In this document: one piece after another, positions 3,502 to 20,826 of the stretch
Layout of the letters: each line of letters opens with the position of its first letter
Numbering within the stretch: position 1 is the first letter of the stretch
DNA from: Halanaerobium sp. MA284_MarDTE_T2
Lineage (GTDB): Bacteria; Bacillota; Halanaerobiia; Halanaerobiales; Halanaerobiaceae
DNA: 47,372 nt
Reading direction: 5' to 3'
Assembly: GCF_003337245.1 (NCBI RefSeq)
Contig: NZ_QPJE01000010.1
Span: 25,872-73,243 of the forward strand
Translations under genes and position numbers: made by a program
Notes under the pieces: generated by a model
Database searches by the model: none
What the model was told of the DNA's origin: nothing
The model's input: the letters and a program-made list of their open reading frames with translations, nothing else

Positions 3502-3530
3502 GTTTCGCAATCTACTAATCGGCAAATGTC

Positions 3531-4462: not shown

Positions 4463-4484
4463 AATTAACCTCCTAAGAAATTGC

Positions 4485-4621
4485 GCATAACGTCCCGAGT
4501 ATTCCCGACGTGCTCGTGCCCTAGGCCTGGCATGCCTTTTGCCACTCTTTGCAAAAGGCATGCCAGAGAGCATGTCCGAAGGATAGCCGGTCTTTGGCGT
4601 CACGGGAATACTCTGTTATCT
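4485..4621. repeat. attC-like repeat 5 (type II)
   Basis: 137 nt between GCATAAC (4485-4491) and GTTATCT (4615-4621). GAGTATTCCCGACGTG pairs with the right-hand CACGGGAATACTC, making this one of the most perfect outer stems. The centre is a second near-perfect hairpin, GGCATGCCTTTTGC with GCAAAAGGCATGCC (about 4527-4565). Confidence 0.8.
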
Positions 4622-4633
4622 GAAGTTGCACTT

Positions 4634-5668
4634 CTACCTTTCAGAAAACCAAACATTTACAAGTGTAGTTAAATATAAACCTAAAATAAACCATCCAAAA
4701 ATTCCTTCAGTTACATATAATATCTTATAATCTAGAAAGAAAGAGGCTGGATAATCTCCTGAAGTGAAAAAGGCACTAACACTTGTTAAGAATGACTGAC
4801 TTATACTGTTTAAATTAAAATAATAAACAAAAGAAAAAACAGTAATAATTAATATCCCAGCTCCAAATGCTCTAAAAGGTTTAATTCCATAACCAGTTAA
4901 TAATTCTATTAAAAATTTTTTATATAAATAATCTATTAATCCATTATTGTTATGATTTGTTCCTGCTTGTTTTGATTTAAAAAAATATTTTCTTTCTTTA
5001 TCGTAAACATTAGCTGCTTTAAATGCTTGCCGGATAGAATTATAAAAATCACTCAAAAATGAATAATTATACTCTGATTTCTTCGATCGTTTATGTGCAA
5101 CAAAATATGTAACAGGTTCCTCAATATTTACTGTAGAATTAAATTTACAATCTGAAAACAAATTTTCTTCTGTAAAAAAATGTTTAAATTTTGTATTAGA
5201 AAAACTGCAGTTTATTAATTTACAGCCTTCAATAAAATCACAATTAATAAATTTACATTTTTCAAATTTTGCCCCTAACCATACATTATTATGAAAAATA
5301 CAATTGTGAAAAGTAACTTTATGAAATTTGGCAAATTTAAAGGAACAACGAAAATATCCATTTTTAAATTCACTATGATAAAAATGTGAATAAGAAAAAT
5401 CCATATTTTCAAAATTATCTTTTTTGGGGAAATCAATTTCTTCTCCAGTAATCGTTATCCCTCTTAAATCATACATATCATCTAAAAAGTCCTTTAATAT
5501 CCCATATTCATATTCCTTTTGAAGAAAATCTTCGCCTGCACCATTTCTAATCTTTTCTAACACGAGTTTATAAGCTTCTTCGCCTCCATTTATTGGCTCC
5601 CATCTATCACTATATTTTATTCTTTCTTTAGTATTGTATAAATTTAATTGATGTATCGGAATAAACAT
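4634..5668 (-). CDS. Pentapeptide-repeat protein with C-terminal 2TM channel-like domain
   Basis: 344 residues from the ATG at 5668, chosen because GAGGTGAT (5674-5680) sits in front; the 5695 start lies in the cassette arm. Residues about 90-170 contain pentapeptide repeats with central Phe/Leu (for example NMDFSYSHF, KFEKCKFINCDF, LINCSFSNTKF), which should fold as a quadrilateral beta-helix. The C-terminus has TM1 (FRAFGAGILIITVFSFVYYF), a pore-loop-like segment (FLTSVSAFFTSGDYPASFF) and TM2 (GIFGWFILGLYLTTLVNVW), the Ion_trans_2 layout. The selectivity-filter position reads TSGDY rather than TVGYG, so potassium selectivity is doubtful. Single-gene cassette; function unknown. Confidence 0.75.
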   Translation of the reverse strand: MFIPIHQLNLYNTKERIKYSDRWEPINGGEEAYKLVLEKIRNGAGEDFLQKEYEYGILKDFLDDMYDLRGITITGEEIDFPKKDNFENMDFSYSHFYHSEFKNGYFRCSFKFAKFHKVTFHNCIFHNNVWLGAKFEKCKFINCDFIEGCKLINCSFSNTKFKHFFTEENLFSDCKFNSTVNIEEPVTYFVAHKRSKKSEYNYSFLSDFYNSIRQAFKAANVYDKERKYFFKSKQAGTNHNNNGLIDYLYKKFLIELLTGYGIKPFRAFGAGILIITVFSFVYYFNLNSISQSFLTSVSAFFTSGDYPASFFLDYKILYVTEGIFGWFILGLYLTTLVNVWFSER

Positions 5669-5699
5669 TACTATCACCTCAAATTTTAAGTGCAATTTC

Positions 5700-5831
5700 A
5701 GATAACGTTACTGGGATTTGCGCTCGTGCCTGGTTCCGCAGGAACTGGCGTAAAGCTTGCGTTTTCGTATCCGTGATTAGTTTAAATGCAAGCTTTATGA
5801 CAGAGGGCATGACGCCAATCACATGTTAGAC
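5700..5831. repeat. attC-like repeat 6 (type I)
   Basis: 132 nt between AGATAAC (5700-5706) and GTTAGAC (5825-5831). TTACTGGGATTTGCGCTCG pairs with GACGCCAATCACATG; the inner stem is AAGCTTGC with GCAAGCTT. Closely similar to repeats 8 and 10. Confidence 0.8.
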
Positions 5832-5862
5832 GATGGAGCCCCTTTTTTTAAAAGTTGATCTA

Positions 5863-7230
5863 TTATTCTAAATAACATTTTTTTGGATTCGCGGGAGTTG
5901 ACCAATCGATATATTCGCCACTATATCCTATTATTTTTAGTAAAATTTTATCTAGCATATTTATCATAAAAAAATACTCTTCCGTTGGATCCGAAAATGG
6001 TGTACCTCCAAAATTGACTTGGCTATAAAATTTTCCTTGATGAACTAAGTGATTTCTGCTTTTTTTGAACAAATTTATTTCTTTATAATCAAAATCTAAC
6101 TTTATATATTTAAATAGTTTTTTTATTAAGCTGATAAAAGATCTTCTATTTAATTGTTTCAATTTATTCTTACCGGTAAATGCTTGAATCTCATTAGAAT
6201 TTAAATTCAAATCTTCTAATTTATTTTTGAAACAGATTTTTAATTCTTCCGCAATAGAATTATACATATCTTCTGATATAATATTATCTATTCCTTTATT
6301 ATTATTTGAAAATGAATTAACTATCATTTCTAAAACAATAGCCACTTTTAAACCTCTTAACTCTAAAAAATCATGCATTGTTCTTGCGTCTAAATATGCA
6401 TCAATTGTTCCTTTATCTAAATTAAACTCTTCACCTCTAATTAAATAATTATTATAGGTTTTATCTATAAATTCGGAAATTAGCATTGTACTATTTACAT
6501 CAATAACTTCCAAAAATACATATGGTTTAGTAACATGATTAAAATGTTTAACTTTGCAAATATCCCCTTTTTTATTTATCTCTTTGCAATATACCCATTG
6601 GATTTTTGTACCACGAGCCAAAGATAATAAATAACATAAGTCATCTATTATTTTAGTAATATCATCAAAACCATTGTCATTGCTATTTTCTATCGCAATT
6701 TCAGCAGTAACATTAATTCCTTTAGATATTTTTAAATTATGAATAATATCACTGTAATTATTTTTCTTTTTAATATTTACATCTATTCCATCCTCAAGAG
6801 AAAATTTTTGTTCATGGTTAGATGTAATTCCAAATTTAAAATTAGTTATTCCAAATACATATTTATCTAATGTATATTTTTTTGTTTTAATTATTTCTAT
6901 TTTTCTACTATGAAATAAATCACAATTGCCGAAAAAATCAGAGGGTATTTCTGGATTAAAAAAAACTGCATCAAATGGTGCTATAGCTTTTATGTCCCAA
7001 TTCTCTTTAGTAGTTCCCAAAAATTTTTCAATTGATAGTTCTTTAGATGAATCATCAAAGTTTATATAATTATTTGAAAATGAAAAAGCTATAAGTGATT
7101 CTCCAGTTTCTAGTTGTGTAGCATAAAATTCAGCTTTGTGTTTTTTACCATCTTTAGTAAATAAGATTCCTTCACCTTCATATGAAAAATTTTTATTTCC
7201 ATATGGGTCTACTTTATGACTTAAATTCAT
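5863..7230 (-). CDS. ApeA-like HEPN-domain protein, putative abortive-infection effector
   Basis: 455 residues. The N-terminal two-thirds are beta-rich (FSYEGEGILFTKDGKKHKAEF opening) and include IIDDLCYLLSLARGTKIQWVYC at about residues 195-216. This layout resembles ApeA-type N-terminal domains. The C-terminal part is helical and contains KKSRNHLVHQGKF, an R-x4-H motif (R392, H397), the catalytic signature of HEPN ribonucleases. Known: ApeA-like HEPN proteins act in anti-phage abortive infection. Inferred: this cassette is a defence gene. It could instead be a HEPN protein outside the ApeA family, since the N-terminal match is by eye. It is the sole gene between repeats 6 and 7. Confidence 0.65.
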   Translation of the reverse strand: MNLSHKVDPYGNKNFSYEGEGILFTKDGKKHKAEFYATQLETGESLIAFSFSNNYINFDDSSKELSIEKFLGTTKENWDIKAIAPFDAVFFNPEIPSDFFGNCDLFHSRKIEIIKTKKYTLDKYVFGITNFKFGITSNHEQKFSLEDGIDVNIKKKNNYSDIIHNLKISKGINVTAEIAIENSNDNGFDDITKIIDDLCYLLSLARGTKIQWVYCKEINKKGDICKVKHFNHVTKPYVFLEVIDVNSTMLISEFIDKTYNNYLIRGEEFNLDKGTIDAYLDARTMHDFLELRGLKVAIVLEMIVNSFSNNNKGIDNIISEDMYNSIAEELKICFKNKLEDLNLNSNEIQAFTGKNKLKQLNRRSFISLIKKLFKYIKLDFDYKEINLFKKSRNHLVHQGKFYSQVNFGGTPFSDPTEEYFFMINMLDKILLKIIGYSGEYIDWSTPANPKKCYLE

Positions 7231-7273
7231 AATTCACCTCTAACTTATAAGATTTTATTGTTGGGGCTCTTTC

Positions 7274-7378
7274 GTCTAACGTTACTGGGATTTAAGAAGT
7301 TCATGAGGTTTAGGGCGACCGCCCTTACCAAATGAATTTGCAATGGAGCGTAGCGACATCTTTAATCCCATGTTATAC
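7274..7378. repeat. attC-like repeat 7 (shortest, divergent centre)
   Basis: 105 nt between GTCTAAC (7274-7280) and GTTATAC (7372-7378). The outer stem TTACTGGGATT pairs with AATCCCATG like type I, but the centre is different: GGTTTAGGGCG facing CGCCCTTACC, and TTCATGAGG partly facing CCAAATGAA. Only the outer ends and the 5-nt GTTAC spacer are kept. Confidence 0.75.
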
Positions 7379-7417
7379 GAAGTTGCTTTTTTTCAGCAAA
7401 GTATTAAAAATATAACT

Positions 7418-8659
7418 TTATTTTTTATATAACATATCAATCTTTTGTTCTATCGATTTATTTTTTTGGGTGCTAATTTTTTGAACTAACTTTTCTAATT
7501 CTAATAGTGGATTCATTTTATGATAAAAAATTTTTTTAGATCCTTTTTCCCATTTATGTTTATCAAATAATAACTTATCTTCATTTGCTAATGATTCTTT
7601 TGATAAAGTTTGTGCTGCTCTATTCATAAAACACTTATCCCAATTATTTCTATTGTATTTTTTATATTCAGAAATTCCCTCAGTATAATATTCCATTATA
7701 TTTTCAGGTTTGTCAAAATAATCTATTGGATATTTTTTATAAGGATCATATGTATATTGTATTAAAATTTCTCTACCAAGCCTTTCTTGAATCAACTTTT
7801 TATTAGATAGATTTAAGATAACTATTGAATAACATATTATTCTAAATTCTCTTACCAAAAATTTTTCTTTTTTAAATAAATTTTCATTTTTAAAAGAATA
7901 TTTTATGTCAATATTTATGAATTTTCCAAAAAGAAAACCTAAAAAAGAATTAATTTTAGTTTGTTTTCTTATTTTGGGTACTGTTTCGAATCCAAATTGT
8001 TTCCAAAGCCAATCAAAATATATATAAAAATCTGGTAAATATGATAACTGATTAAATCTATTAAAAAATTCATCTCTATTTCCGGATTTAGTATGAAATC
8101 GTCTCTCAAGAGCACTAGTAGAATTAAGTTCAAACTCCCTTATACTTAAATTTTCTAGAGATTCTTTTTCTTCTAAAGTGAATGTCTCCATTAATAATTT
8201 TTTATTTTTCTTAAATAAATCAGCTAAAATTTTTATTGATAGTATTTTAATATAATCAAACCAATAATTTTCAACATATTTTACCTTTTCCCAATCAAAT
8301 TTTTTCTTAAAATTTTTTGTACAAATGTTGAATTCCTTTTTTATCCTATCAATATTTATTTCTATATTATAGTCGTTTTTTAAATAATTAGTTAAATTAT
8401 GTTTAATACAATAATTAAGAATATTGAAAATTAAATATTGAATTGAATCAGACTGGTGCATTATTGCAAAAGAAGGTGGAACAAAACTTTTATATTGTTT
8501 AATATTAATCAAACAAGATCGATAAATATCATTGTAAAATCCCTTCAAAACAATGTTGCTTTTTACTGAACATTTAGGGCAATCAATATTTTCTTCATAA
8601 GGTATATAAAAAGACCCACAATTTTCACAAAAGTATTCTGTTTCTAGATGTAAAGTCAA
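7418..8659 (-). CDS. Unknown protein with N-terminal zinc ribbon
   Basis: 413 residues if translation begins at TTG 8659, which has a GGGAGGG Shine-Dalgarno 5-6 nt upstream (8665-8671); the ATG at 8686 has no such site. Residues 11-30 form a CxxC-x12-CxxC zinc ribbon (CENC and CPKC). The rest is helical, Lys/Phe/Tyr-rich and has no catalytic motif I recognise. No membrane segment is evident. It is a single-gene cassette next to HEPN and HD proteins, so a defence role is possible by association only. The length and the ribbon at the N-terminus could mean nucleic-acid binding. Confidence 0.6.
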   Translation of the reverse strand: MTLHLETEYFCENCGSFYIPYEENIDCPKCSVKSNIVLKGFYNDIYRSCLINIKQYKSFVPPSFAIMHQSDSIQYLIFNILNYCIKHNLTNYLKNDYNIEINIDRIKKEFNICTKNFKKKFDWEKVKYVENYWFDYIKILSIKILADLFKKNKKLLMETFTLEEKESLENLSIREFELNSTSALERRFHTKSGNRDEFFNRFNQLSYLPDFYIYFDWLWKQFGFETVPKIRKQTKINSFLGFLFGKFINIDIKYSFKNENLFKKEKFLVREFRIICYSIVILNLSNKKLIQERLGREILIQYTYDPYKKYPIDYFDKPENIMEYYTEGISEYKKYNRNNWDKCFMNRAAQTLSKESLANEDKLLFDKHKWEKGSKKIFYHKMNPLLELEKLVQKISTQKNKSIEQKIDMLYKK

Positions 8660-8738
8660 TTTTTTCCCTCCCATAAAAAAATACATTACGTCAAATCTAA
8701 TAGTTTTTTAAAAGTATTAATATATTAAAAGCTATTTC

Positions 8739-8870
8739 GTATAACGTCCCTGGGATTTGCGCTCGTGACTGGTTCCGCAGGAACTGGCGTAAAGCTTGCG
8801 TTTTCATATCTTTGATTGGTTAATCTGCAAGCTTTATGACAGAAGGCATGACGCCAATCCCATGTTAGCC
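8739..8870. repeat. attC-like repeat 8 (type I)
   Basis: 132 nt between GTATAAC (8739-8745) and GTTAGCC (8864-8870). It carries the GTCCC spacer of type II but the TGGGATTTGCGC stem of type I, with right arm ACGCCAATCCCATG. The inner stem is AAGCTTGC/GCAAGCTT. Confidence 0.8.
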
Positions 8871-8927
8871 GAAGTTGTCAAGATGCAGTAGAAATAACAT
8901 ACAAAAATTTTATAATATCAAAATCAT

Positions 8928-10541
8928 TTATAATTTGATATTATTATATTCTAATAATACATTTCCATAATCAATTATTGGCTTACTATTTTTATTTAAT
9001 AAAGTTTGCATTATAGAAAATGAATTTAAAATATATTCTTTACCTTCTTCTGCATTTTTTAAAAGAATATTAGCTTGTTTATTAGAGTAATCACCTTCAG
9101 GTAAAATGACTCCATTTGACTTATAATTAATTACTTTTTTATTGTTTTTATTCTTTTTATCAAGGATAATGATTTTTAATTCAATTTCTTCTGGCAAATC
9201 ATGATCAATATATGCACAAGTCACGAATTCTAATGTATTTAGTGAAGCTAATAATTCAATTTCATTATTATTTATCATTTTTTGTAATATTTTTGCTCTA
9301 TAATCACCGTGCTTTTTATCTAATATATATAATTCTTCTAAAGCTTCTGTTTTTTTGTTTAATTTAATATATCCCCAAGCTAATTTTATTCTTGTCGAAA
9401 TATCATCAGAATTATCTAAAAGATAAAGTTTTAAATCTGTTATTGTTTTATGGGTTAGTAATTTCTCTTGAGAAAAATTACTAATATATTCAAATTCACA
9501 ATTTATTGAATTAATGTCATTTTCATTTAAATCTAAACGATATAAATATGAAGGGTCATCACTTGGTGAATAAGCCGGATTTTGTACTTTATTTTTTAAA
9601 GTTGGTCCTTCAAATTTTTCACATTCTTTTTTAAACTTCTTTAGAACTTCTTTATCTGGAAAAGGAAGTAGTTCATTAAATTGAGTGCTTCTTTGTATTT
9701 CATTATCAAATTTCGGTAAATTTCTGTCTTCTAAAACAGAATTAAAACGTTTAAGTTCAATCTTGATTTTATCTTGAACTATTGTATAAAGATAAACCGC
9801 AAAAGAAGAAAATTTTTCTGGAAATTCATATACTATCTCAATTTTTGGTCCGTTAATTCCAATATACTTCACATATAAATGTTTGAAATGATGCATATAA
9901 GAATAAGAACTAGGATTAAAAGTTGAAAATTTTCGTTCATCAGTTCTAATCATTGATATATCTAATTCATCACATATCAATAATAGTCCTAACAATAAAT
10001 CACCTTTAATTTTTTTATTATTTACAATTAGTGGGTTTTGTTTTATTTTATTATAAACATCTTTGTAATTAGTAGAAGAATGACCAGAACATAAAGTCGA
10101 TATAGCTTGTATATATCCTCTGTTTAAAGAATCAAGTCCTAATGAATATGACATTGATTTATCATCTGGAACTGGAAATTTTCTTTTTAATATTAATTCT
10201 TCTGTTTTTAATGCATGTTTCTTTCTAATTTTTTCATATTCATTATCCGTAAGATCTTCTATGCTAATTTCATCTACATTTAAATATTGCATTCCAATAT
10301 CATGTAAATAAGCACTAGCTAAAAATATAAAAATTTCATCCTCATTTAAACTAAAATTATTATGCTTTGACAAATAAGAGATGATTTGATTTGCATTAGA
10401 TATGATTTGCTCAGAATGTGATAACCCATGGTCTGTAAACCAAGGCAATAATGGATTTGACCATATTTTTTTAACTTTTCTTTCTATCTCGTTAATTTCA
10501 TCTAAACAGCTATCATTTAATTGTTCTTTTAAGAATCCCAT
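8928..10541 (-). CDS. HD-domain phosphohydrolase-like protein (HD-CE type) with helical C-terminus
   Basis: 537 residues. The N-terminal HD domain shows ordered metal ligands: DHGLSHSEQ (H42), LASAYLHDIGMQ (H80-D81), CSGHSS (H154) and LLLICDELDISMIR (D191). The phrase DHGxxHxxx...LHDIGM...ADELDI resembles the HD domains joined to conflict-system proteins (HD-CE) rather than Cas3 or RelA. The C-terminal half is helical, perhaps TPR-like around residues 370-440 (ISTRIKLAWGYIKLNKKTEALEELYIL). Inferred: a nucleotide- or nucleic-acid-cleaving effector. Start supported by position and AAGGGAAGTG upstream. Single-gene cassette. Confidence 0.7.
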   Translation of the reverse strand: MGFLKEQLNDSCLDEINEIERKVKKIWSNPLLPWFTDHGLSHSEQIISNANQIISYLSKHNNFSLNEDEIFIFLASAYLHDIGMQYLNVDEISIEDLTDNEYEKIRKKHALKTEELILKRKFPVPDDKSMSYSLGLDSLNRGYIQAISTLCSGHSSTNYKDVYNKIKQNPLIVNNKKIKGDLLLGLLLICDELDISMIRTDERKFSTFNPSSYSYMHHFKHLYVKYIGINGPKIEIVYEFPEKFSSFAVYLYTIVQDKIKIELKRFNSVLEDRNLPKFDNEIQRSTQFNELLPFPDKEVLKKFKKECEKFEGPTLKNKVQNPAYSPSDDPSYLYRLDLNENDINSINCEFEYISNFSQEKLLTHKTITDLKLYLLDNSDDISTRIKLAWGYIKLNKKTEALEELYILDKKHGDYRAKILQKMINNNEIELLASLNTLEFVTCAYIDHDLPEEIELKIIILDKKNKNNKKVINYKSNGVILPEGDYSNKQANILLKNAEEGKEYILNSFSIMQTLLNKNSKPIIDYGNVLLEYNNIKL

Positions 10542-10606
10542 TTTTATAACACTTCCCTTATTCTAAGTTTAAAATATCCTTATAATTATTTTTACATGAC
10601 AATTTC

Positions 10607-10778
10607 GGCTAACGTCCCGAGTGTTCCCGACGTGCCTGTGCCCCTCGGCCTGTTACGATGTTTGCTTAAAATTTGCTTCCGGTTTGTTTCATCAGTAACT
10701 TTTGCAAACATCGTAACAGAAGGCATGTCCCGACAGGGCTGGCTGGTTTTTAGCCAAAGCTGGAACACTCTGTTATGT
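10607..10778. repeat. attC-like repeat 9 (type II, long)
   Basis: 172 nt between GGCTAAC (10607-10613) and GTTATGT (10772-10778). GAGTGTTCCCGACGTG faces the right-hand GGAACACTC. Nested CTGTTACGATGTTTGC faces GCAAACATCGTAACAG, a near-perfect long stem. Closest relative is repeat 2. Confidence 0.8.
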
Positions 10779-10791
10779 GACGTTGGGTCCT

Positions 10792-11772
10792 CTAATTATT
10801 ATCAATTAATTCTTTTACAAAATCTATATATTCATCACGGATTTTATAATTATCTTTCTCCCATGAATGATTTGGATAATCATAAGAGATAATTTGCCTT
10901 AGAAAATCATTTTTTTCCATTCCAATTTGATTTGAAATTAATGATACAAAATATCCTTTATTTTTTTCTGCATTTGGTTCATTATAATCTAAAAATGCTT
11001 GCTTTAATTCCTCTCTAGTAACCGTGCCTTTTTTTAGACATTCAGGTAAAAGGACATTTTTAATTCTTCGAGGTGTCTTTAGATCTTTTTTAAAATAATT
11101 TATTAATAATTCTTTTAATTCATCTTTATCGTAATTACCGGGTTCATCTGACATTGGAATAGTAAATTTTTTCTTTGTTCTTTGTTTCTCTACTTCTTCT
11201 GGTATAGTTGTGGTTTTACTTAATAATTCTGCTCCAGATTGAGTTTTTACATAGTGAAGAATTACCGCATTTATACTAACACTAAAATTATCTGAAAGCC
11301 ACTCAATCATTCTATTTAAAGAATCTTCTATTTTAAAGCCGACAAGAAGAATCCTTTGAGTTTGGTTTATATTTAAATTTTCTAAAGTGATCTCTTCAAA
11401 AGTATCAGATAAAAAATCTTCCAAGTTCTTACCTATTTCTTCACTGAGCTGGTCTATATCCCATTCAGCAACTGCAGCCGCATAATCTATTGCTTGCGCT
11501 AATGCCTCTCTAGGAAGTTTATCTCTTTTAATTTCTATTATAACTGTATTACCGTTTTTATCTATGCCAAGTAAATCAAGAGGTCCAGAACGAGTATTAA
11601 TTTGTCTTCCTATTATAGCAATTCCTTCACCAAGAATCTCGGAATTTGATAATATCCATTCTTCTAAGTCATATGACTCAGTACGCCCTTCGTCAGCTAA
11701 ATTAGTATTAATTTCTTCCAGTTTTCCATTTATTATTTCCCAAGATGTAATTTTAGTAGCGATATAAGTCAC
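10792..11772 (-). CDS. PD-(D/E)XK nuclease family protein (NucS/DUF91-like)
   Basis: About 326 residues from GTG 11772. The nuclease core is SGPLDLLGIDKNGNTVIIEIKRDKLPREALAQAIDYA: catalytic Asp (D66), E80-x-K82 and the downstream Q93/Y pair, a full PD-(D/E)XK signature of the DUF91/NucS-like group that cuts or binds branched or mismatched DNA. A C-terminal region of about 130 residues is unassigned. The start is problematic: the strongest SD, GGAGGTGA (11769-11776), points 8 nt downstream at an ATC codon (11763-11761), while GTG 11772 and TTG 11778 overlap it. The frame extending to 11871 runs into repeat 10 and is rejected. Sole gene of its cassette. Confidence 0.75.
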   Translation of the reverse strand: MTYIATKITSWEIINGKLEEINTNLADEGRTESYDLEEWILSNSEILGEGIAIIGRQINTRSGPLDLLGIDKNGNTVIIEIKRDKLPREALAQAIDYAAAVAEWDIDQLSEEIGKNLEDFLSDTFEEITLENLNINQTQRILLVGFKIEDSLNRMIEWLSDNFSVSINAVILHYVKTQSGAELLSKTTTIPEEVEKQRTKKKFTIPMSDEPGNYDKDELKELLINYFKKDLKTPRRIKNVLLPECLKKGTVTREELKQAFLDYNEPNAEKNKGYFVSLISNQIGMEKNDFLRQIISYDYPNHSWEKDNYKIRDEYIDFVKELIDNN

Positions 11773-11802
11773 CTCCAAGAATTTTATATTTGGCCCAATG
11801 TC

Positions 11803-11934
11803 ACATAACGTTACTGGGATTTGCGCTCGTGACTGTTTCCGCAGGAACTGGCGTAAAGCTTGCTTTTCCATATCCGTGATTGGTTAGCCTGCAAGCTTTA
11901 TGACAGAAGGCATGACGCCAATCCCATGTTATAT
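11803..11934. repeat. attC-like repeat 10 (type I), nearest the recombinase
   Basis: 132 nt between ACATAAC (11803-11809) and GTTATAT (11928-11934). TACTGGGATTTGCG pairs with CGCCAATCCCA; the inner stem is AAGCTTGC/GCAAGCTT. It is the last full repeat before the array end, and its right core matches the half-site at 12946-12952. Confidence 0.8.
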
Positions 11935-12035
11935 GATGGAGTAGGCTGTTTTATTAATTATTTGTTATTGAGCAAAGTAATTTTGGCATATTTTCCTATA
12001 TAATAAAAGTTTATCTTTTTTAAAATAAATTAAGA

Positions 12036-12869
12036 TTAAGTATATTTCTTATCAGTTATATGAATTGAAACACTATTATTTTTTTCTCTTATTCCTACAT
12101 CTAATCCGTTTTCTGTTTCACCTAAATACTTATAAGTATTTGATTTTAAACTTATTTTATCATTATCCCAATTAACAAATATTAAATTATCTATATAATG
12201 TTTTATTTTATTTATGGTATAATCATTGTCAAATAATTGAATCCTAACATTAGCTAAACTAAAATCTACAAAATCAATGTCCAATTCTCCAATTTGTGAT
12301 TTACTTTCATTGAATTTAAAATATTTATTAGAAAAATTATCATACTTTTTTTCAAATGATTTATTACTAATTTTATTTAACATTTTTATTTCATCAGTTT
12401 CGGTAATATCTTTAAAACTGTTTCTTGGTAAATATGAAAATAAATCGTTCATTGAATTAATATTTTTAAATTCATTTATGAAAACATCAAGTATTTTATT
12501 AATAGTAATATTGTCATTTTTATTTTTTCTTAATTCACTTTTAAAATTTTTTGTTAAAGCATCTATATCGGTTGAATCAAATTTATTAACACTTTTTGTT
12601 TTATTCGAACTATATCCTAGCTTTTTAAAAATGAAATATACTATAGCATTTGCAAGAAAATGCCAAATAAATAATAAAAAGAATACAAACAATAGTAAAA
12701 AAGTTATACTAATAAAGTTAATCAAAATACCTGTTAAAATAAATTCGATCCAGAAAAGAACTTTTAATATACCACTTTTTTTCAAACTGCCATGTCCAAT
12801 ATTAATAATTCTACGAACTAAATCTACTATTAAAACTAAAAAAATAATAATTTCTGGTACAAAATTCAT
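12036..12869 (-). CDS. Membrane-anchored protein of unknown function
   Basis: 277 residues, starting at the ATG after a GGGAGG site. The first about 95 residues hold three to four hydrophobic stretches (EIIIFLVLIVDLV; VLFWIEFILTGILINFISITFLLLFVFFLLFIWHFLANAIVYFIF), followed by a soluble Asn/Lys-rich domain with predicted alternating helices and strands. No family recognised. As the first cassette in the presumed reading direction (closest to the recombinase), it would receive any read-through transcript from the yjfB/recombinase side first. Codon use and AT content are like the other cassettes and lower in GC than the repeats. Confidence 0.6.
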   Translation of the reverse strand: MNFVPEIIIFLVLIVDLVRRIINIGHGSLKKSGILKVLFWIEFILTGILINFISITFLLLFVFFLLFIWHFLANAIVYFIFKKLGYSSNKTKSVNKFDSTDIDALTKNFKSELRKNKNDNITINKILDVFINEFKNINSMNDLFSYLPRNSFKDITETDEIKMLNKISNKSFEKKYDNFSNKYFKFNESKSQIGELDIDFVDFSLANVRIQLFDNDYTINKIKHYIDNLIFVNWDNDKISLKSNTYKYLGETENGLDVGIREKNNSVSIHITDKKYT

Positions 12870-12933
12870 TTTTACCTCCCTATAGATTTGTATTAATAAA
12901 ATATTTTATATTTTAAATAATAACCATAAATTA

Positions 12934-12952
12934 GCCTACTCTTTCATATAAC
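12934..12952. repeat. Terminal half-site of the array
   Basis: The sequence GCCTACTCTTTCATATAAC is the right arm of the last cassette and is complementary to its left arm at 11928-11946, except at positions 10 and 11. It ends in the ATATAAC core (12946-12952), but no palindromic repeat follows. On the minus strand it reads GTTATAT, so this is the expected attI x attC junction (G then TT) at the recombinase-proximal end. Confidence 0.7.
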
Positions 12953-13017
12953 TCTTTTCTTTACGTATAAAAATTCATAAATATATTTACTCTTTAAATC
13001 TTCACGACTGTTATTTC
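12946..13017. other. Candidate attI-like recombination region
   Basis: Between the half-site core ATATAAC and the recombinase stop lie 80 bp without a gene. A second core-like GTTAT occurs at 13010-13014 in the context ACTGTTAT, facing the first core 65 nt away. An integron attI has a recombinase-bound core at the insertion point, so this is the natural candidate. There is no palindrome like that of the repeats. Position is the only evidence. Confidence 0.35.
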
Positions 13018-13032
13018 ATTAAGATATCCATT

Positions 13033-13869
13033 CTATAAATTATCAAAAGGATTGGTGATTTCAATAAAATTCTTATTACTTACATGAGTATAAATTTCAG
13101 TTGTAGTAGAACTTTTATGACCCAGCAGGTTCTGTATATATCTCAAATCAACTCCCTGTTCCAGCAGATGGGTAGCAAAAGAATGTCTCAAAGAATGAAT
13201 ACCAACATCTTTATTTATTCCTGCTTTTTTACAGGCTCTCTTAAAAACTTTCTGTGCACTTCTTTTTGATAAATGCCTATCCTTATTCTGACCTGGGAAA
13301 AGCCATTTTTTATCATATTTATGTACCTGAAAAGCTTTTAGATAAAATTTCAACTTTACTAAAACGTTTTGAGATAATAATGTATACCTATCCTTATATC
13401 CCTTTGCAGAGCGGATATAAATCAGCATTCTATCTGTATCAATATCAGATATTTTTAATCTCACAACTTCACTTACTCTCAAACCCCCCGAATAGGTTAA
13501 AATTAAAATAAGCTGATGTTTTAAATTACCAACAGATGCAATAATCTCTTTAATCTCTTTTTTATTCAATACCTTGGGCAGCTTCTTTTTCTTTTTGGGT
13601 CGAAATAATTTTTTATTAATTCCATCCAGTTCTAAAATTAAATTATTGAACATTTTAAAAGCACTGATAAACTGGTTGGCAAAAGAATGAGTATTCTCTT
13701 TTTCTTCTATGAGGTATAAAATATAATCATTAAGATCATCCATTTTTATAGAAAATAAATTTTTCTGAATATAAATTATAAATCTTCTATTATGATTAAT
13801 ATAAGCTTTGATAGTACTTCTGGTATAACCTTTCAATTTTAGCTTTTTTTCAAATAAAAAAGGCAACAA
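13033..13869 (-). CDS. Tyrosine recombinase, IntI/Xer-like, adjacent to the cassette array
   Basis: 278 residues with the complete tyrosine-recombinase set: R131 (SGGLRVSEV), K156 (SAKGYKDR), H225-x2-R228 (IHSLRHSFATHLLEQG), H251 (LLGHKSSTTT) and nucleophile Y260 (EIYTHVS). The N-terminal SAM-like core-binding domain spans about residues 1-85. The C-terminus TNPFDNL resembles the SPLDxL end of integron integrases. The region between K156 and H225 is short and lacks the extra helix (I2 insertion) that defines IntI, so it is Xer-like in that respect. It is oriented toward the array, the reverse of the class 1 layout. The TTG start lies inside the yjfB terminator with no clear RBS, so the true start is uncertain; TTG 13836 is another option. 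Confidence 0.85.
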   Translation of the reverse strand: MLPFLFEKKLKLKGYTRSTIKAYINHNRRFIIYIQKNLFSIKMDDLNDYILYLIEEKENTHSFANQFISAFKMFNNLILELDGINKKLFRPKKKKKLPKVLNKKEIKEIIASVGNLKHQLILILTYSGGLRVSEVVRLKISDIDTDRMLIYIRSAKGYKDRYTLLSQNVLVKLKFYLKAFQVHKYDKKWLFPGQNKDRHLSKRSAQKVFKRACKKAGINKDVGIHSLRHSFATHLLEQGVDLRYIQNLLGHKSSTTTEIYTHVSNKNFIEITNPFDNL

Positions 13870-13892
13870 CTTAAATAAAAAAGTTATTGCCC
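13856..13892 (-). terminator. Terminator of the yjfB-like gene, overlapping the recombinase start
   Basis: Minus-strand stem GGCAATAACTT (13892-13882), eight-nt loop, AAGTTGTTGCC (13872-13862), then TTTTTTATTTG. One wobble pair in eleven. It lies 10 nt after the yjfB stop. The TTG codons proposed as the recombinase start are inside its descending arm. Confidence 0.7.
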
Positions 13893-13901
13893 ATAGTTCA
13901 A

Positions 13902-14096
13902 CTAAACGCGCACATTTATATATTGTCCGCGGTTAATACCAGCTGCCTGTTGAACAGCCTCTGTGTTTTCTTCCATTCCTTCTAACAGTTTGCTTACTAC
14001 TGCTGCATCCTGACCCATTGCTTTCTGCATTGACATCATGCTCAATGCCTGCTGTACACTTGCAATCTGATCCTGCATAGCAGAATTGACATTCAT
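13902..14096 (-). CDS. YjfB-like putative motility protein
   Basis: 64 residues, small and helical: MNVNSAMQDQIASVQQALSM, then KAMGQDAAVVSKLLEGME, matching the short YjfB family found in flagellated Firmicutes and often under sigma-D control. An AAGGAG site lies just upstream of the ATG. It is the last gene of the flagellar island and is followed by its own terminator, then the recombinase and the cassette array. The biochemical role is unknown. The 254-bp gap to the chemoreceptor (14097-14350) has a TATAAT-like element but no convincing -35. Confidence 0.75.
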   Translation of the reverse strand: MNVNSAMQDQIASVQQALSMMSMQKAMGQDAAVVSKLLEGMEENTEAVQQAAGINRGQYINVRV

Positions 14097-14350
14097 TTGC
14101 TCAACTCCTTTTTTTACAATTATAATTTATTATAGCGTGAACCTCTTCTCCTAAATCACATATTTAGATGGAGTTTTCTTGGCTGATTTAGATATAGAAA
14201 ACCACTGTTTAAAAAACCTTTACTGACAATTTCATCAGCTCTTATTATTATTGTCGTTTAAATAGCTATTTTATTAAACACCTTCAGCTTTGATTTAAGA
14301 CAATAAAATTAAGAATAATCAAACTTAAACCTATTTACAAGTTTATACAA

Positions 14351-16336
14351 CTATATTTCAAATTGATCTACAGCTATTTTAAGTTCTTCCGCATATTCTG
14401 CCAACTTTTCCGCAGAAAAAACAATCTCCTTTGTAGCTGCAATCTGTTCCTGACTGGCAGCGGCAACTTCCTCAGAGTTACTAGCTGAAGTTTCACTTAC
14501 TGCTGCAATATCATTAACACCTCTTTCTACATAATCACTATTTTCTTTCATTTTATTAGAATCATCTGCTACTTGATTAATTAGAGTCAATAAGTCTTCA
14601 GCAGATCTTTCAATTTTACTGAATACTTCTCCAGTTTCTTTAACCATCTCAACATTTTCTTCTATATTTTTTTGCCCTTCTTCATTATTTTCTATTACAT
14701 CAGCTACGCTATTTTGAATAGATTGAATCAGTTTGTTAATTTTTTCAGTTGCACCTGCTGATTCTTCTGCCAATTCTCTAATTTCATCTGCAACAACCGA
14801 AAATCCACGACCTGCTTCTCCTGCCCTAGCAGCTTCTATTGCAGCATTTAAGGCAAGTAAATTAGTTTGATCTGCAATTTGATTAATCAAATCAACAATT
14901 TCACCAATTTCTTTAGATTTTTCTCCCAATTCTCTAACATTAGCAGCTACCAGCTTGTTTGATTTTTCAACCTGATTGCTCTGCCTAATGGAAGAATTAA
15001 TATATTCATTACCCTGTTCAATATTCTCTTTAACACTTTCTGCTTCTTCTATCATCTTGTCTGATTTGACTGCATTAGCAGTTATAACCTGGTTAAGATT
15101 TGTGATATTGCTTGAAATTTCTTCAATCTGAGCTGATTGTTCTTCAGCACCAGAAGCAACATTTTCAATTGAGCGACCAACATCTTCAGCATTTTTCTCA
15201 ACCTGAGAACCATTGGCACTTAATTGCTCACTGGAAGTGGCAAGTTCCTGAGCAGTTGTTTTTACCTGATTAATTATCTGCTGTAAATTAATTACCATCG
15301 AATTAATAGACTTAAGCAGCTGGCCAAGTTCATCTTCTTTGTTAACCCTAAATTTTTCTAAATCAAGCCTTTGAGTTAAGTCTCCAGCAGCTACCTTATC
15401 AGCTACTTCAGCTGCACTCCTGATTGGATTAACAATTGAGCGAGTAATTAAATAGCTAACTAAAATACCAATTAAAATAGCTATTACTGCTGAAAAAATA
15501 CTGCTGTTACGAATAATATCTAATGGAGAAAACATCTCTGCCTCTTTTGCTGTTAAAGCAACTGTCCAGTTAACAGACTCAACGGTTGCGTAAGCAAGAT
15601 TCCACTTATTACCCGCTTCTATATAACTATTATAACCACTTTTATTTTTGAGAACAGTATTTATTGTTTGCCTAAATTCTTCTCCACTTTCTGCAATTAG
15701 ATCTTGATTTCCTAAGTATTTGTCGTCCGGATGAGCAAGGATGTTTCCTGACTGATCTAAAATCATTCCATAACCACTACCATTAATATCCATATCAGCT
15801 ATTAAATTTTGCAGGATATCAAGAGCTACAACAGCTCCTACAATTCCAACTAATTTCTGTTCTCTGAAAATTGGACTGGCAATAATAGTAATTGGTCTGC
15901 CGGTCTCAAAACTTTCTGTCGGTTCTGAAAAAACTTGCTCTCGATTTGCCATAACTTCTTGAAAATAACTCTGATGAGCTACACTAGTTTCAAACTGATT
16001 TGTGTCTTTCATTATTCCCTCAGGATCAACAATAAATAATGATTCAATCTGATGATCATCATCTGAAATAGGCTTTAAATCATTGTACTGCCGCTCCCAG
16101 TTCATACTTTTAATACTTTCTAAATAACTTAAGTTTTGAACTATCTTTCCTTTTTCCTCTGTCCAGAGACGGATAGTTTCTACTGATTTTTGAGCATTAT
16201 TCTCTGCCTCAGACTGCAGAGTATTACTTAAGATATTTTCTGACTGCTGAAAAGCATAATATGAGCTGCCAGCAATTAATAAAAATAGCATTAGACTGAT
16301 TAAAAAAATCATCTTTGTTTTAATACTTTTAAACAT
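14351..16336 (-). CDS. Methyl-accepting chemotaxis protein
   Basis: 661 residues from the ATG at 16336, preceded by GGAAAGGGGAAG. TM1 is [21 protein letters not shown] periplasmic dCache-type sensor follows (residues 35-280; [16 protein letters not shown] and [19 protein letters not shown] are typical Cache strands). TM2 is [19 protein letters not shown], then a HAMP domain. The signalling domain carries the hairpin tip [40 protein letters not shown]. It feeds the Che system represented here by cheB and cheR. The ligand is unknown; dCache receptors often bind amino acids or organic acids. Confidence 0.95.
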
Positions 16337-16380
16337 AGACTTCCCCTTTCCCAAAAAATCTAAAATTGTAATCTAAAAAA

Positions 16381-16409
16381 ATTATATTATAAAAATTTAA
16401 TAAAGGCAA
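16381..16409 (-). promoter_or_regulatory. Sigma-A-type promoter for the chemoreceptor gene
   Basis: On the minus strand -35 TTGCCT (16409-16404), 17-nt spacer, -10 TATAAT (16386-16381). Four of six and six of six matches. Transcription would begin about 40 nt before the start codon. Confidence 0.6.
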
Positions 16410-16421
16410 TTTAGTTCATAG

Positions 16422-16856
16422 CTAAATCTGCTCATCCAGAACATGCTCTTCTTTTTTATCTTCGGCATAAATAAAGCGATCACTACCTGAAGCTGTTATT
16501 TTAAGACTAACTTTACCTATTCCAAATTCTTCGTTAACCTGCTGCTGAATGGCAGACTGAATCTCTGTTAAATTATATTCTCCCGGATCAATTTTTACAG
16601 CTCTATTGCGGTCATTGTGGTTAATAAAGAAAATGTTATTGCTATCATTAATTCTTATTGGCCTTTTAACAGCATCCTGGACTGCAATATCTTCTAGGTT
16701 ATAGGTAACTTTTTCTGGCTGCTGTGACTTGGTAAATCTGTCACTTTTTAGATCCTGATTGTTTTGTTCGCTGCTCTGCTTAGACTGATTTAGTTGATTC
16801 TGAATTACATTTTTGATTTGGGTTAGGACAGAATTATTTTTTTCTACAGCAGACAT
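16422..16856 (-). CDS. Small unknown protein between pseG and the chemoreceptor
   Basis: 144 residues, charged, no membrane segment. Gln/Asn-rich N-terminus (NQLNQSKQSSEQNNQDLKS), then a beta-rich C-terminal half (SNNIFFINHNDRNRAVKIDPGEYNLTEIQSAIQQQVNEEFGIGKVSLKITASGSDRFIYAED). The latter part (GEYNLTEIQSAIQQQVNEEFG...VSLK) resembles the domain of flagellin-like or FlgL-like insertions that reads ExLaxAIN, so a flagellar accessory role is a guess. AGAGGTGA is placed correctly. It is last in the glycosylation operon (43 nt after pseG) and precedes the receptor promoter. Confidence 0.55.
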   Translation of the reverse strand: MSAVEKNNSVLTQIKNVIQNQLNQSKQSSEQNNQDLKSDRFTKSQQPEKVTYNLEDIAVQDAVKRPIRINDSNNIFFINHNDRNRAVKIDPGEYNLTEIQSAIQQQVNEEFGIGKVSLKITASGSDRFIYAEDKKEEHVLDEQI

Positions 16857-16899
16857 TTTTGGTCACCTCTTTTATTATTATTATTGAAATTTAACATAA

Positions 16900-17913
16900 C
16901 TAGATATTAAAATTCATTTTCTTACTGTTTATGAAATCATTTATATAATCATTTTTGTTTCTCATTAATCCAATAATACCTTCAGAAATATTTGTGATGT
17001 TCTCTTCATATCCTAAATTGACAACACTTTTACCATCCAATTTTTCAGCAACTCTAACTTGATTTTCTGCCTGCAGCATTACCAACGCTGGAGTCTTAGT
17101 TACTGCTAATTCATAAAGAGTACTCCCACCAGAAGAAATAGCAATATCACTTTTCAACATTAATTTACTCATCTTTTTGACATTAAAGTTTAATGAAATA
17201 TCCAAACTGCTTTTTTCAACTTCTGCTACTATCTGATCTACATTATCAAAAGAAGGACCTATTACAACATCAATATGCAAATTTTCATTATCAATATATT
17301 GATCATCTATTTCATCAAAATCAATAGAATTTAAAGCTTTAATAATCTTTGGTGTTAAATTCCTAGTATCATAACCACCAACAGTAACTAAAATATTTTG
17401 CACTTTATCTCTAACTTCTATTTCAGGCAAATTTCTGAACTCTTCTCTTAAAAGTAGGTAATCCGTTCCCAGTCGAAACTCAGTGTCTCCATATAAAGAT
17501 TCATAATCTAAATCTTCAGCATAAGCATTTCCATTGATAACAACATGAGAAGGAAAGGCAAAAGGGGCATAATCATGGATAGTAACTAACTTATCAACTA
17601 CTTTTCTCATTTCAATTAAATAGTTCTGATCTATTTTATAAGAATCAGTAATTAACTTATTAACTTTCTCTTTTTTTATGATTTCTTTAACTTTTTCTAT
17701 TTCATCATCATAGCTTAAATTTTTATCTAAAGTTATAACTTCAAAATCATTTTCTTTTAATTTATTAACTCCAGATGGATAATTTATAGTAATATAGAAA
17801 ACTCTTTCTACTTCTTTATCTTTTCTTAAGTCATTAGCTAAAGCCATTGAACGCATGATATGTCCCATGCCGATATCTTTACCACCATCTACTCTTAATG
17901 CTGCAACTGACAT
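16900..17913 (-). CDS. pseG: UDP-2,4-diacetamido-2,4,6-trideoxy-beta-L-altropyranose hydrolase
   Basis: 337 residues. The PseG hallmark is at the N-terminus: RVDGGKDIGMGHIMRSMALAND, matching the G-x-G-H-x2-R loop. A glycosyltransferase-like nucleotide-binding C-terminal domain includes SSGGSTLYELAVTKTPALV. PseG removes UDP from UDP-6-deoxy-AltdiNAc, the fourth step of pseudaminic acid synthesis, before PseI. It is coupled to the deacetylase gene (9 nt apart, RBS GGTGATAGG inside it). Length and motifs fit the family; the alternative (NeuC-type epimerase) is excluded by the motif. Confidence 0.9.
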   Translation of the reverse strand: MSVAALRVDGGKDIGMGHIMRSMALANDLRKDKEVERVFYITINYPSGVNKLKENDFEVITLDKNLSYDDEIEKVKEIIKKEKVNKLITDSYKIDQNYLIEMRKVVDKLVTIHDYAPFAFPSHVVINGNAYAEDLDYESLYGDTEFRLGTDYLLLREEFRNLPEIEVRDKVQNILVTVGGYDTRNLTPKIIKALNSIDFDEIDDQYIDNENLHIDVVIGPSFDNVDQIVAEVEKSSLDISLNFNVKKMSKLMLKSDIAISSGGSTLYELAVTKTPALVMLQAENQVRVAEKLDGKSVVNLGYEENITNISEGIIGLMRNKNDYINDFINSKKMNFNI

Positions 17914-17922
17914 CCTATCACC

Positions 17923-18612
17923 TTAATCTTCTACTTTTCTTATTAATTCAAAAGCTTCGACATATTCTTTTCCTACTACTGTACCCCAGCGAGCAGCAAT
18001 AGTCTTCAGAGCTTTTAATGATCTTGGATGAGGATAATCTCTTTTTTCAGAATCATAGCAATCCATTCCCTTTAATTTAGCCTCAATAGTTTCACTAATG
18101 TCTACAAATAAATTAGGCTTAAATGTATTATCTCCATACTGAAAGTTCCATTCAGTTGATGAAGGTGTCTCAAAAGCATATATTTCTTTTACTCCATACT
18201 CTCCTACCGGACGACAGGCAGTAATAACTGCTTCAAATGTTCTTTGATGATCAATATTTAGATCTCCATAATGATGAGTATAGATTATATCGGGTTGAAC
18301 TTTCTTTATAATCTTTTCTATCTCTTTTATAATATCCAGCAAATCAACTGAATCAAAACGGTTATCAGGTAATTTAGAAAAGTATAGATTATCATATCCA
18401 ATAAATTCAGCAGCCTGATAGGTATCAGAATATAATTCTTCTAAAGATTCTTTACTAACCTGTTCACGATCATTTCCACGTGAAGTTAATCCTTCGCCCA
18501 GGATTAAACAATCAGCTTTATCTCCATCATTTACTCTTTTGCGAATTGTTCCACCCAGACCTAATAATTCATCATCTGGATGAGCAGCAATTGTTAAAAT
18601 TTTATTAGCCAT
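17923..18612 (-). CDS. PIG-L family de-N-acetylase
   Basis: 229 residues with the LmbE/PIG-L zinc signature AAHPDDELLGLGGTI (residues 9-23) and the third ligand region THHYGDLNIDHQRTF. These enzymes remove N-acetyl groups from GlcNAc-type sugars. It overlaps the formyltransferase gene by 8 nt and precedes pseG, so the three are one unit. Its place beside a formyltransferase inside a pseudaminic acid cluster suggests an acetyl group is removed and replaced by formyl (inference). Substrate is not known from sequence. Confidence 0.88.
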   Translation of the reverse strand: MANKILTIAAHPDDELLGLGGTIRKRVNDGDKADCLILGEGLTSRGNDREQVSKESLEELYSDTYQAAEFIGYDNLYFSKLPDNRFDSVDLLDIIKEIEKIIKKVQPDIIYTHHYGDLNIDHQRTFEAVITACRPVGEYGVKEIYAFETPSSTEWNFQYGDNTFKPNLFVDISETIEAKLKGMDCYDSEKRDYPHPRSLKALKTIAARWGTVVGKEYVEAFELIRKVED

Positions 18613-19300
18613 CTAAATCATCCTCATTTAATCTCTTAATTTTAACATCAGCAACAATGCCATCAGCTGTTAACTTTGCTCTAGAAAACTCTAATTTTAT
18701 ATCTCCATATTCAATAAATGCATCTGGATAGCCTTCAGCATCAAGCATTCTTATATGATCATAAACTTTTGAAAGAGAAAAATCATTTTTTATTTCACTC
18801 TGATAGGGTTTCCTTCTTTTAAATTCAACTACTTCACCCTTTTGCTCTTTTGGTATAATTTCATTATTAATAATTTCCGGAATCATTTCATTAAAGATAA
18901 GACTAGAAGATCTTAAAAAAATTTCTTCTGCAGTTCCATTAAGATTTAAATCTTTTTTTAAATAAATAGGGCCGGTATCTAATCCTCCATCAACTTTTAA
19001 TGCTGAGATTTTAGTATTTTCAATACCTCTTACAATAAGGTTCTGTAAAGGACTACCTCCTCTTCCATAAGGAAGATCAGTCATATGGAACACAACACAG
19101 TTAAAATTATTATATATATTATCAGGTATTATCCAGGACCAGTGAGGAAAAAATATATATTCCGGATTGAAACTATTTAATTTCTCATAGTTTAATTCAT
19201 TTTTGTCAGTTATTAATTTAATCTGGTGTTTACTTTCTTTAATCATTTCTTCGGCTTTTTTTATATTCCATGATTTTATAGTAGCAATAACAAATTTCAT
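18605..19300 (-). CDS. Formyltransferase family protein
   Basis: 231 residues. Core features of the formyl-THF transferase fold: NYEKLNSFNPEYIFFPHWSWIIPDNIYNNFNCVVFHMTDLPYGRGGSPLQNLI, in which H and the PxGRGGSPLQ stretch replace the fmt HxSLLPxYRG, and KVDGGLDTGPIYLK, equivalent to fmt GxDxGPI. Too short for methionyl-tRNA formyltransferase, so a sugar N-formyltransferase is expected, as in dTDP-sugar formylation. Its ATG overlaps the pseH-pseI stop (TAATG) and its tail overlaps the deacetylase gene. Confidence 0.85.
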   Translation of the reverse strand: MKFVIATIKSWNIKKAEEMIKESKHQIKLITDKNELNYEKLNSFNPEYIFFPHWSWIIPDNIYNNFNCVVFHMTDLPYGRGGSPLQNLIVRGIENTKISALKVDGGLDTGPIYLKKDLNLNGTAEEIFLRSSSLIFNEMIPEIINNEIIPKEQKGEVVEFKRRKPYQSEIKNDFSLSKVYDHIRMLDAEGYPDAFIEYGDIKLEFSRAKLTADGIVADVKIKRLNEDDLDG

Positions 19301-20826
19301 TATTTAATCAAATCCCAGTTTAAAGGAGTTCCCTCTTCTATATCTTTTAAAGCTTTTTTATGCAGAACTTTCTCCCAGTTTTTTGGTTTAAGTCCATAGC
19401 CAGGACGTATAACTCTGATGTTCTCTTCAGTCAATTCTTCTCCTGCTTTGATATCTTCAACTGCAAAGATCGACCTTCTAAACAGTCTGCTATTTTTTTC
19501 CTTTTCAGAAATAGAATAGTCAATCTTACCGATTGCTTTTTCTGCAGCTCTTATATCATCAACCATTTTTTTAAATTCATCCGGTTCCATAGAAAAAGAT
19601 GCATCAGGATTTTCAATTTCTCTGCTCATACAGAAATGTTTTTCTATTATCTTAGCTCCCATTGCTACAGAAGTTACAGCTGCAACAGAACCTAAAGAAT
19701 GATCAGATAACCCAACAGGTACACCAAATGTTTCTTCTAAATTTTTTATGTTCTTCAAATTCATATCATCTGCAATAGATGGATAAGCACTGGAGCAATT
19801 TAAAAGTGCTAATTGATCATTTCCAGCTTCTCTGATAGTTCTAACAGCTTCATCGATTTCTGCTAGAGTCGCCATACCAGTTGACATGATTATGGGTTTG
19901 GCTTTTTGAGCGAGATACTTTAAAAAAGGAAGATTAGTTATACTAAAAGATGCAACCTTATAAAATTCAACTCCTAAATCTTCTAAAAAATCAACTGCTG
20001 TATTCTCATAAGGAGTAGAAAAGAAATCAATACCTATCTTTTCAGCTTCTTTTTTCAAATCTTCCTGCCATTCCCAGGGAGTATAAGCTTTCTGATAAAG
20101 ATTATGTAAATTCTCACCTTTCCAGGTTCCTTTATCTATTTGAAACCACTTTTTCTCTGAATAAATTGTCATAGTATCAGGAGTATATGTTTGAACCTTA
20201 ACACAATCAGCACCTGCTTTTTTAGCAGCATGAATGATTTCTAAAGCTCTATCTTTGCTGCCTGCATGATTAGCAGACATTTCAGCTATTATATAAGCTG
20301 GTTTGTTTTTCCCTATTGTTCTATCAGAAGTTAATTTAATTTGTTCATTCATATTATAACCCTCTTTTATTTTATAATAAAAAATATCATAATTTTTGTT
20401 TTCTTTTTTGATTTTATTAAAATCAGCTTTAATAAATACTTTTTTAGAAGCCATGTTTTTCTTTTTTACTTTTCCAATAAGCTTATATATATCAAAAGAA
20501 TTATTATTTATTTTGTCGATTAATAATTCTAATAATACGGTTCCAAAACCATTACCTCGTTCACTCTTAGCAATACTAAAGTCGATCTCACCAACTTTAT
20601 TATCAATATCTACTCTAATTTGACCTACATCCTTATTATTTTTAGTTAAAATATAAATTAAAGTGTTTTTATCTTCTAATCTACTTTTAAACCATTTTTT
20701 GTGTTCCTGATATTCTATTTTTTCTTGGTTAAAAGCATTATTCCTTACTGCAGAATCATTTGCCCATTTGAATATCAAATCCATATCTTCATAAGTTGCT
20801 TTTCTTAAAAAAATATTATTATACAT
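19300..20826 (-). CDS. pseI: Fused PseH acetyltransferase - PseI pseudaminic acid synthase
   Basis: 508 residues with two domains. Residues 1-158 are a GNAT N-acetyltransferase (IFLRKATYEDMDLIFKWAND; ERGNGFGTVLLELLID acetyl-CoA loop) corresponding to PseH. Residues 159-508 are a NeuB/PseI synthase: AEMSANHAGSKDRALEIIHAAKKAGADCVKVQTY, then STGMATLAEIDEA, GLSDHSLG and a SAF-like C-terminus (RSIFAVEDIKAGEELTEENI). PseI condenses 2,4-diacetamido-altrose with phosphoenolpyruvate. The internal ATG at 20352 has its own GAGGG site 7 nt upstream (20360-20364), so both a fusion and a separate PseI may be made. In most relatives pseH and pseI are separate genes. Confidence 0.9.
   Translation of the reverse strand: MYNNIFLRKATYEDMDLIFKWANDSAVRNNAFNQEKIEYQEHKKWFKSRLEDKNTLIYILTKNNKDVGQIRVDIDNKVGEIDFSIAKSERGNGFGTVLLELLIDKINNNSFDIYKLIGKVKKKNMASKKVFIKADFNKIKKENKNYDIFYYKIKEGYNMNEQIKLTSDRTIGKNKPAYIIAEMSANHAGSKDRALEIIHAAKKAGADCVKVQTYTPDTMTIYSEKKWFQIDKGTWKGENLHNLYQKAYTPWEWQEDLKKEAEKIGIDFFSTPYENTAVDFLEDLGVEFYKVASFSITNLPFLKYLAQKAKPIIMSTGMATLAEIDEAVRTIREAGNDQLALLNCSSAYPSIADDMNLKNIKNLEETFGVPVGLSDHSLGSVAAVTSVAMGAKIIEKHFCMSREIENPDASFSMEPDEFKKMVDDIRAAEKAIGKIDYSISEKEKNSRLFRRSIFAVEDIKAGEELTEENIRVIRPGYGLKPKNWEKVLHKKALKDIEEGTPLNWDLIK

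Follow-up and report, generated by a model that had tools for sequence, protein, structure and literature searches.

The I2 helix is regarded as essential for integrons. According to published work, it was the gain of I2 that took integron integrases from recombining duplex DNA to recombining single strands (PMC7790495, PMC4792948). The stretch of DNA analysed here (47,372 nt, hereafter the window) carries a tyrosine recombinase that has no such insertion and lies beside a long array of hairpin-like repeats. This raises the question whether such an enzyme can be the integrase of an integron, and, if so, whether it represents an older state of the family or a later loss.

A recombinase with an Xer-length core

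The recombinase gene (13033-13869, minus strand) encodes 278 amino acids from a TTG start and matches PF00589 with 146.8 bits. An earlier note, made from the letters of the window, had described a complete R-K-HxxR-H-Y catalytic set together with an IntI-like C-terminal TNPFDNL, and both are indeed present, the protein ending in EITNPFDNL. The same note had claimed that the I2 insertion is absent, which the measured distances bear out: between the K of the beta-turn and the H of HxxR there are 69 residues in the window recombinase, 64-69 in array-linked relatives and 66-74 in the XerC/XerA-type sequences measured, as against 105-106 in every canonical IntI in which the distance was measurable.

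Model scores give the same picture. The NCBIfam integron-integrase model (TIGR02249) reaches 195.2 bits, under its cut-off of 265, and its alignment is split in two pieces that flank the absent insertion; the alignment with IntI4 from the PDB (2a3v) is likewise in two pieces. The top-scoring model is the XerA-type NF040815, at 221.6 bits (cut-off 220), while the XerC and XerD models give 186 and 177 bits (cut-offs 330 and 335). The core is 64-85% identical to that of relatives. A separate Xer-like gene is present in the genome. A search of genome contigs returned only ordinary XerC/D-like genes. An AlphaFold2 model of the window protein alone had a pLDDT of 43 and was set aside.

The attI-like site and the cassette array

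The array next to the recombinase is genuine and exceeds chance by a wide margin. Its repeats span window positions 1-11941 and continue for about 7.6 kb on the same contig (about 20 kb in total), and a DNA similarity search found none elsewhere in the genome. In the reading direction of the recombinase gene, each site has the form R'' (NNNTAAC), a long stem, and (RGGAC or GTAAC) GTTANNN. The features of the locus are the following.

13033-13869, minus strand: tyrosine recombinase (integrase) core, I2-less, missing the HARP-like N-terminus of its relatives
12946-12960, minus strand: attI-like site GAGTTATATGA with its G|TTA crossover predicted at 12952; here the block that relatives conserve after the recombinase gene comes to an end
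11809-12951, minus strand: cassette 1, unknown ORF 12036-12869 (minus strand), attC 11803-11934
10613-11808, minus strand: cassette 2, NucS_C-domain protein (minus strand), attC 10607-10778
8745-10612, minus strand: cassette 3, ORF 8928-10541 (minus strand), attC 8739-8870
7280-8744, minus strand: cassette 4, ORF 7418-8686 (minus strand), attC 7274-7378
5706-7279, minus strand: cassette 5, ORF 5863-7230 (minus strand), attC 5700-5831
4491-5705, minus strand: cassette 6, ORF 4634-5695 (minus strand), attC 4485-4621
3537-4490, minus strand: cassette 7, ORF start near 4460 (minus strand), attC 3531-3689
2617-3536, minus strand: cassette 8, MazE-like/Fic-Doc toxin-antitoxin pair 2850-3466 (plus strand), attC 2611-2740
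875-2616, minus strand: cassette 9, SatD and DUF3307 at 1141-2517 (minus strand), attC 869-1042
1-874, minus strand: cassette 10, truncated at the edge of the window, with a Phd/ParE-type pair 265-841 (plus strand), attC from near 93

The attI-like site, where the chain of cassettes starts at GTTATATG, lies 83 nt past the stop codon of the recombinase (window 12952). From there to position 875 an unbroken chain rule holds for nine of nine cassettes: each R'' is exactly complementary to the bases with which its own cassette begins, and these form the R' of the preceding site. This is the known signature of integron cassettes, in which R' finds its perfect partner R'' only once the cassette has been excised as a circle, and in which the crossover is at G|TTA. 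The two toxin-antitoxin cassettes (265-841, Phd/ParE-type, and 2850-3466, MazE-like/Fic-Doc) point against the direction of the array.

Sites were located with a finder anchored on AC|GTTA, which recovered 13 of them in the window array, none in the remaining 2 x 33 kb of the window (both strands), and a single one in 245 kb of sequence lying upstream of recombinases. The antisense strand yielded few. A strict finder requiring end-pairing hairpins was dropped since it missed most sites, owing to an asymmetric loop near R'/R'', and a looser hairpin finder was dropped for its many false matches. A search of positions 1-14400 against Rfam at E<=0.1 gave no matches.

Chain rule, crossover and cassette mobility across genomes

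Over all loci, 63 of 84 neighbouring site pairs match at the three variable bases, whereas 10,000 shuffles gave a mean of 9.1 matches and a maximum of 21; within one and the same site, R'' and R' match in only 15 of 112. At least some of the misses in the chain are sites that the finder had skipped. These counts exclude three matches to the family profile (G018b, G037 and G161) that adjoin IS91-type transposases instead. In 18 of 23 loci the R'' of the first site is matched by a GTTA no more than 260 nt from the stop codon. The conserved block that follows the integrase gene of relatives stops at GTTA, beyond which the genomes mostly differ, except that three relatives (G007, G003 and G010; loci L034, L036 and L041) have a first segment in common, made up of the initial ~330 nt past attI. 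That segment has no evident ORF and ends in CTTCACGAACTTCGTGAAG, an inverted repeat resembling the motif CGTGAAGAT inside the attI region. Loci G048, G134 and G168 gave no sites with the anchored finder, and in Persicobacter and Rufibacter the arrays allowed no confident assignment of sites.

Several duplicated or common cassettes start and stop 0-4 nt from predicted crossovers, and others reach further back, past an attC of the same type that precedes them. Examples are a cassette duplicated in G018 (814 nt, 99.6%), a segment duplicated in G005 (2.4 kb, 99%) and a segment common to the window genome and G005 (1.5 kb, 92%). As far as sequence comparison can tell, cassettes travel as units between positions and between genomes. 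Comparison of sequences also shows where cassettes begin and end, that the crossover falls at G|TTA, that R' and R'' of a cassette are complementary, that cassette content turns over between species and that integrase and array are linked in many genomes.

Distribution of the recombinase

The recombinase is present in nine of 13 family relatives, with an array downstream in every case where the contig extends far enough. Four or five sites each are also present in two family genomes that gave no recombinase match; clusters without integrase also occur among canonical integrons. Among 398 sampled Bacillota genomes, the family profile has matches at E<=1e-70 in 24, related recombinases are found in about 20, most of them with arrays, and canonical IntI exceeds its cut-off in two. 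In this sample the new kind outnumbers canonical IntI about tenfold. Plasmids of Chryseobacterium carry a 42% identical recombinase with an N-terminal domain and with chained sites.

Some further genomic settings were seen. Relatives of the recombinase directly adjoin IS91-type transposase genes in L064, L066, L109 and L128 (8102-8881), and in G161 and G018 such IS91-adjacent relatives lie near or within attC-like arrays. HARP-less members of the clade on plasmids (L121 2453-3190, L126 2989-3768 and L116 3959-4810) adjoin tet(X3), blaVEB-3 and erm(F), an observation of adjacency only. In G005 the recombinase gene is interrupted (C1:1188391-1190469, L039/L040), its two pieces lying about 1.1 kb apart, although its array is large, and a second cluster of sites is found at 1516420-1539542.

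Phylogeny and the origin of the I2-less state

A tree was built on 278 columns, omitting the insertion, with a small outgroup sample that included two archaeal XerA sequences. Canonical IntI, with I2, form a single clade (100/99) that contains no I2-less member, and together with the I2-less recombinases they form a group at 98/94, apart from XerC/D and archaeal XerA; support for the I2-less recombinases as a monophyletic group is weak (92/16). Constraining the I2-less recombinases to group with XerA, with IntI outside, gave a tree 23.8 log units worse (AU p 0.075), and in neither the best nor the constrained tree was the I2-less group nested in IntI. The I2-less recombinases are likely the sister of IntI. 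Since they do not fall inside IntI in either tree, the simplest view is that the ancestor had no I2, and most likely I2 was gained later by canonical IntI. The suggestion of the earlier note that this may be a precursor-like branch agrees with the sister-like position, although the alternative with IntI outside is retained by the AU test.

One may also consider that the lineage descends from canonical IntI and shed I2 secondarily. The integron-like layout, the SPLDxL-type C-terminus and the attC-like sites are what one would expect of such a descendant; nevertheless, we regard this as improbable, both because all IntI with I2 form one clade without I2-less members and because the Xer and XerA outgroups likewise have no insertion. 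Far less credible still is that a housekeeping XerC/D recombinase or a phage integrase happens to lie near repeats. The size of the protein and its Xer-like gap would fit, but the window recombinase is excluded from the XerC/D clade at 99/92, its genome has the separate Xer-like gene, and linkage to arrays recurs in many genomes. By the criterion of the earlier note, a place within housekeeping Xer or phage integrases, with such arrays missing from other genomes, would have spoken against its reading; the comparison, made for Xer and for arrays, found neither the Xer placement nor a lack of arrays.

The N-terminal domain and the state of the window copy

Eight relatives have about 85 additional N-terminal residues that form a HARP-like domain, with the motif IPGSRWNPKRKYWTF. 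In most of the relatives tested, HARP (PF07443) is the Pfam model that matches the N-terminal domain best; it scores 35.2 bits in one of them (cut-off 25) and stays under the cut-off in the rest, at 15-20 bits in most. The window copy has no such domain, its homology to relatives beginning at about residue 5, and the domain is also absent from some other members of the I2-less clade. The earlier note had proposed that very long arms might help an enzyme without I2 to handle its sites. The link between I2-less recombinases and attC-like arrays stands, but long arms are not general (sites of relatives can be 63-87 nt long) and are thus not needed to explain the missing I2. What accompanies the lineage is a HARP-like domain at the N-terminus, lost in the window copy. 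HARP domains are known from annealing helicases of the SMARCAL1 type, which act on fork and branched DNA (PMC4035279), so it is a reasonable idea, and we propose it as nothing more, that the domain helps to handle folded attC sites.

Upstream of the recombinase (13870-20000) lie genes for a small motility-type protein and a chemoreceptor, followed by a sugar-biosynthesis-type cluster, and this region has no detectable similarity to the regions upstream of the relatives' recombinases, a sign that the N-terminal domain was lost through a rearrangement. With this domain lost, the window copy may be impaired, whether weakened or dead.

Proposed recombination of a folded strand without I2

We consider it rather probable that the recombinase serves as integrase in a chromosomal integron and belongs to a lineage without I2, most likely the ancestral state, the copy in the window being HARP-less. 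Cassettes with long-stem attC sites would integrate at the attI-like site just past the integrase stop codon, cassettes and integrase gene being read in one direction. The substrate would be the folded bottom strand of attC, and exchange would take place on one strand and be completed by replication, as in canonical integrons, proceeding without the I2 helix; in relatives, the HARP-like domain would perhaps assist. The proposed substrate is suggested by the chain rule, the stable stems and a strand bias, the bottom strand folding more stably in 105 of 116 sites; in canonical attC the bottom strand is likewise the more stable fold. Single-strand exchange is further suggested by the R'/R'' pairing, which is conserved per cassette and is relevant only in a folded strand. 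Directly after the crossover the two partners have different bases, and this argues against a two-strand exchange needing a common overlap. Arm-swap energies also favour own arms (-12.8 vs -6.9) and were not counted, because the sites had been pre-selected on arm energy.

An Xer-like cassette system that exchanges duplex sites, with the stems serving another use such as termination, would suit the Xer-sized core and the XerA-type model as top scorer. We think it unlikely, though somewhat less so than secondary loss of I2, given the free variation past the crossover, the complementarity kept within cassettes and the more stable bottom strand. A different matter is whether the integrase in the window is a decayed remnant and its array a static relic, a reading compatible with the I2-less integron lineage. 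The lost N-terminal domain, the weak TTG start and upstream neighbours that differ from those of all relatives speak for decay, whereas the catalytic core is intact and as similar to relatives as noted above, all nine chain joints in the window are preserved, and HARP is missing from other clade members too. We hold decay to be a serious possibility, somewhat less likely than not.

Relation to known systems

As judged from sequence, the locus works like an integron, and as a system it has all the integron features that could be tested: attC sites that form imperfect hairpins, all oriented alike and arrayed beside a tyrosine recombinase, an adjacent attI, the R'/R'' rule and mobile cassettes. 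Canonical integrons, such as class 1 integrons and the Vibrio superintegron, have attI by the integrase, attC hairpins in the same direction, R'/R'' complementarity proper to each cassette, a G|TT crossover and toxin-antitoxin cassettes, and in Treponema the integrase is read in the direction of the array. The window locus shares the attI-attC layout, the cassette-own complementarity, the G|TT crossover, the toxin-antitoxin cassettes and the stabler bottom strand. It differs in R', which is GTTRRRY in canonical integrons and GTTANNYG here, and in the recombinase, which has no I2 between K and HxxR, scores below the TIGR02249 cut-off, lies outside the IntI clade and has relatives with a HARP-like domain. 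With integron features in the system and the defining I2 of IntI missing from its recombinase, we report it as an I2-less integron lineage.

A second comparison is with rAID clusters (recombinase-associated acquired interbacterial defence) of Bacteroidales. A rAID-type cluster on the Bacteroides ovatus plasmid NZ_CP081918 (L127, 3810-6213) has a recombinase of the I2-less clade, co-oriented small genes and intergenic motifs for which the chain rule holds across 8-9 nt in four of four cases, as against 3 nt within the same site, in this one cluster. Its site core is C|ATTA and its cargo consists of immunity genes, whereas the cargo of the window comprises toxin-antitoxin pairs, SatD, NucS_C and unknowns and not orphan immunity genes. 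Such clusters may be integrons, and the intergenic motifs of L127 may behave as attC sites. A 2025 rAID preprint does not use the word integron (PMC12247911). An integron-like subgroup of tyrosine recombinases was reported by Smyshlyaev et al. (2021; PMC8138268), where, in the part covered, attI/attC arrays, HARP and cassettes are not described. In the literature covered, which is incomplete and leaves the original 2019 rAID paper outside, we found no description of arrays, attI or HARP for such recombinases. Archaeal XerA proteins (4a8e, 5hxy) are close structural relatives by sequence and have the same core length, but fall outside the group of IntI and I2-less recombinases in the tree. To our knowledge, no such arrays accompany archaeal XerA.

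Implications

A survey with IntegronFinder 2.0 found one complete integron in Firmicutes (PMC9024848), and integrons may look almost absent from this phylum because searches rely on canonical IntI profiles. It seems to us an evenly balanced proposition that Bacillota and Bacteroidota harbour a large superfamily of integrons, overlooked so far and with rAID included, that recombines folded single-stranded attC without I2, using another device such as the HARP-like domain; single-strand recombination of cassettes would then predate I2, which would be a later refinement of IntI. The lineage joins rAID clusters of gut Bacteroidales to integrons. Published work noted that the sequence of the inferred ancestor was not at hand (PMC7790495, PMC4792948); an I2-less, array-linked sister lineage makes the origin of single-strand recombination directly testable. 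Should folded single strands indeed be recombined without I2, the idea that integron recombination owes its existence to I2 would need revision.
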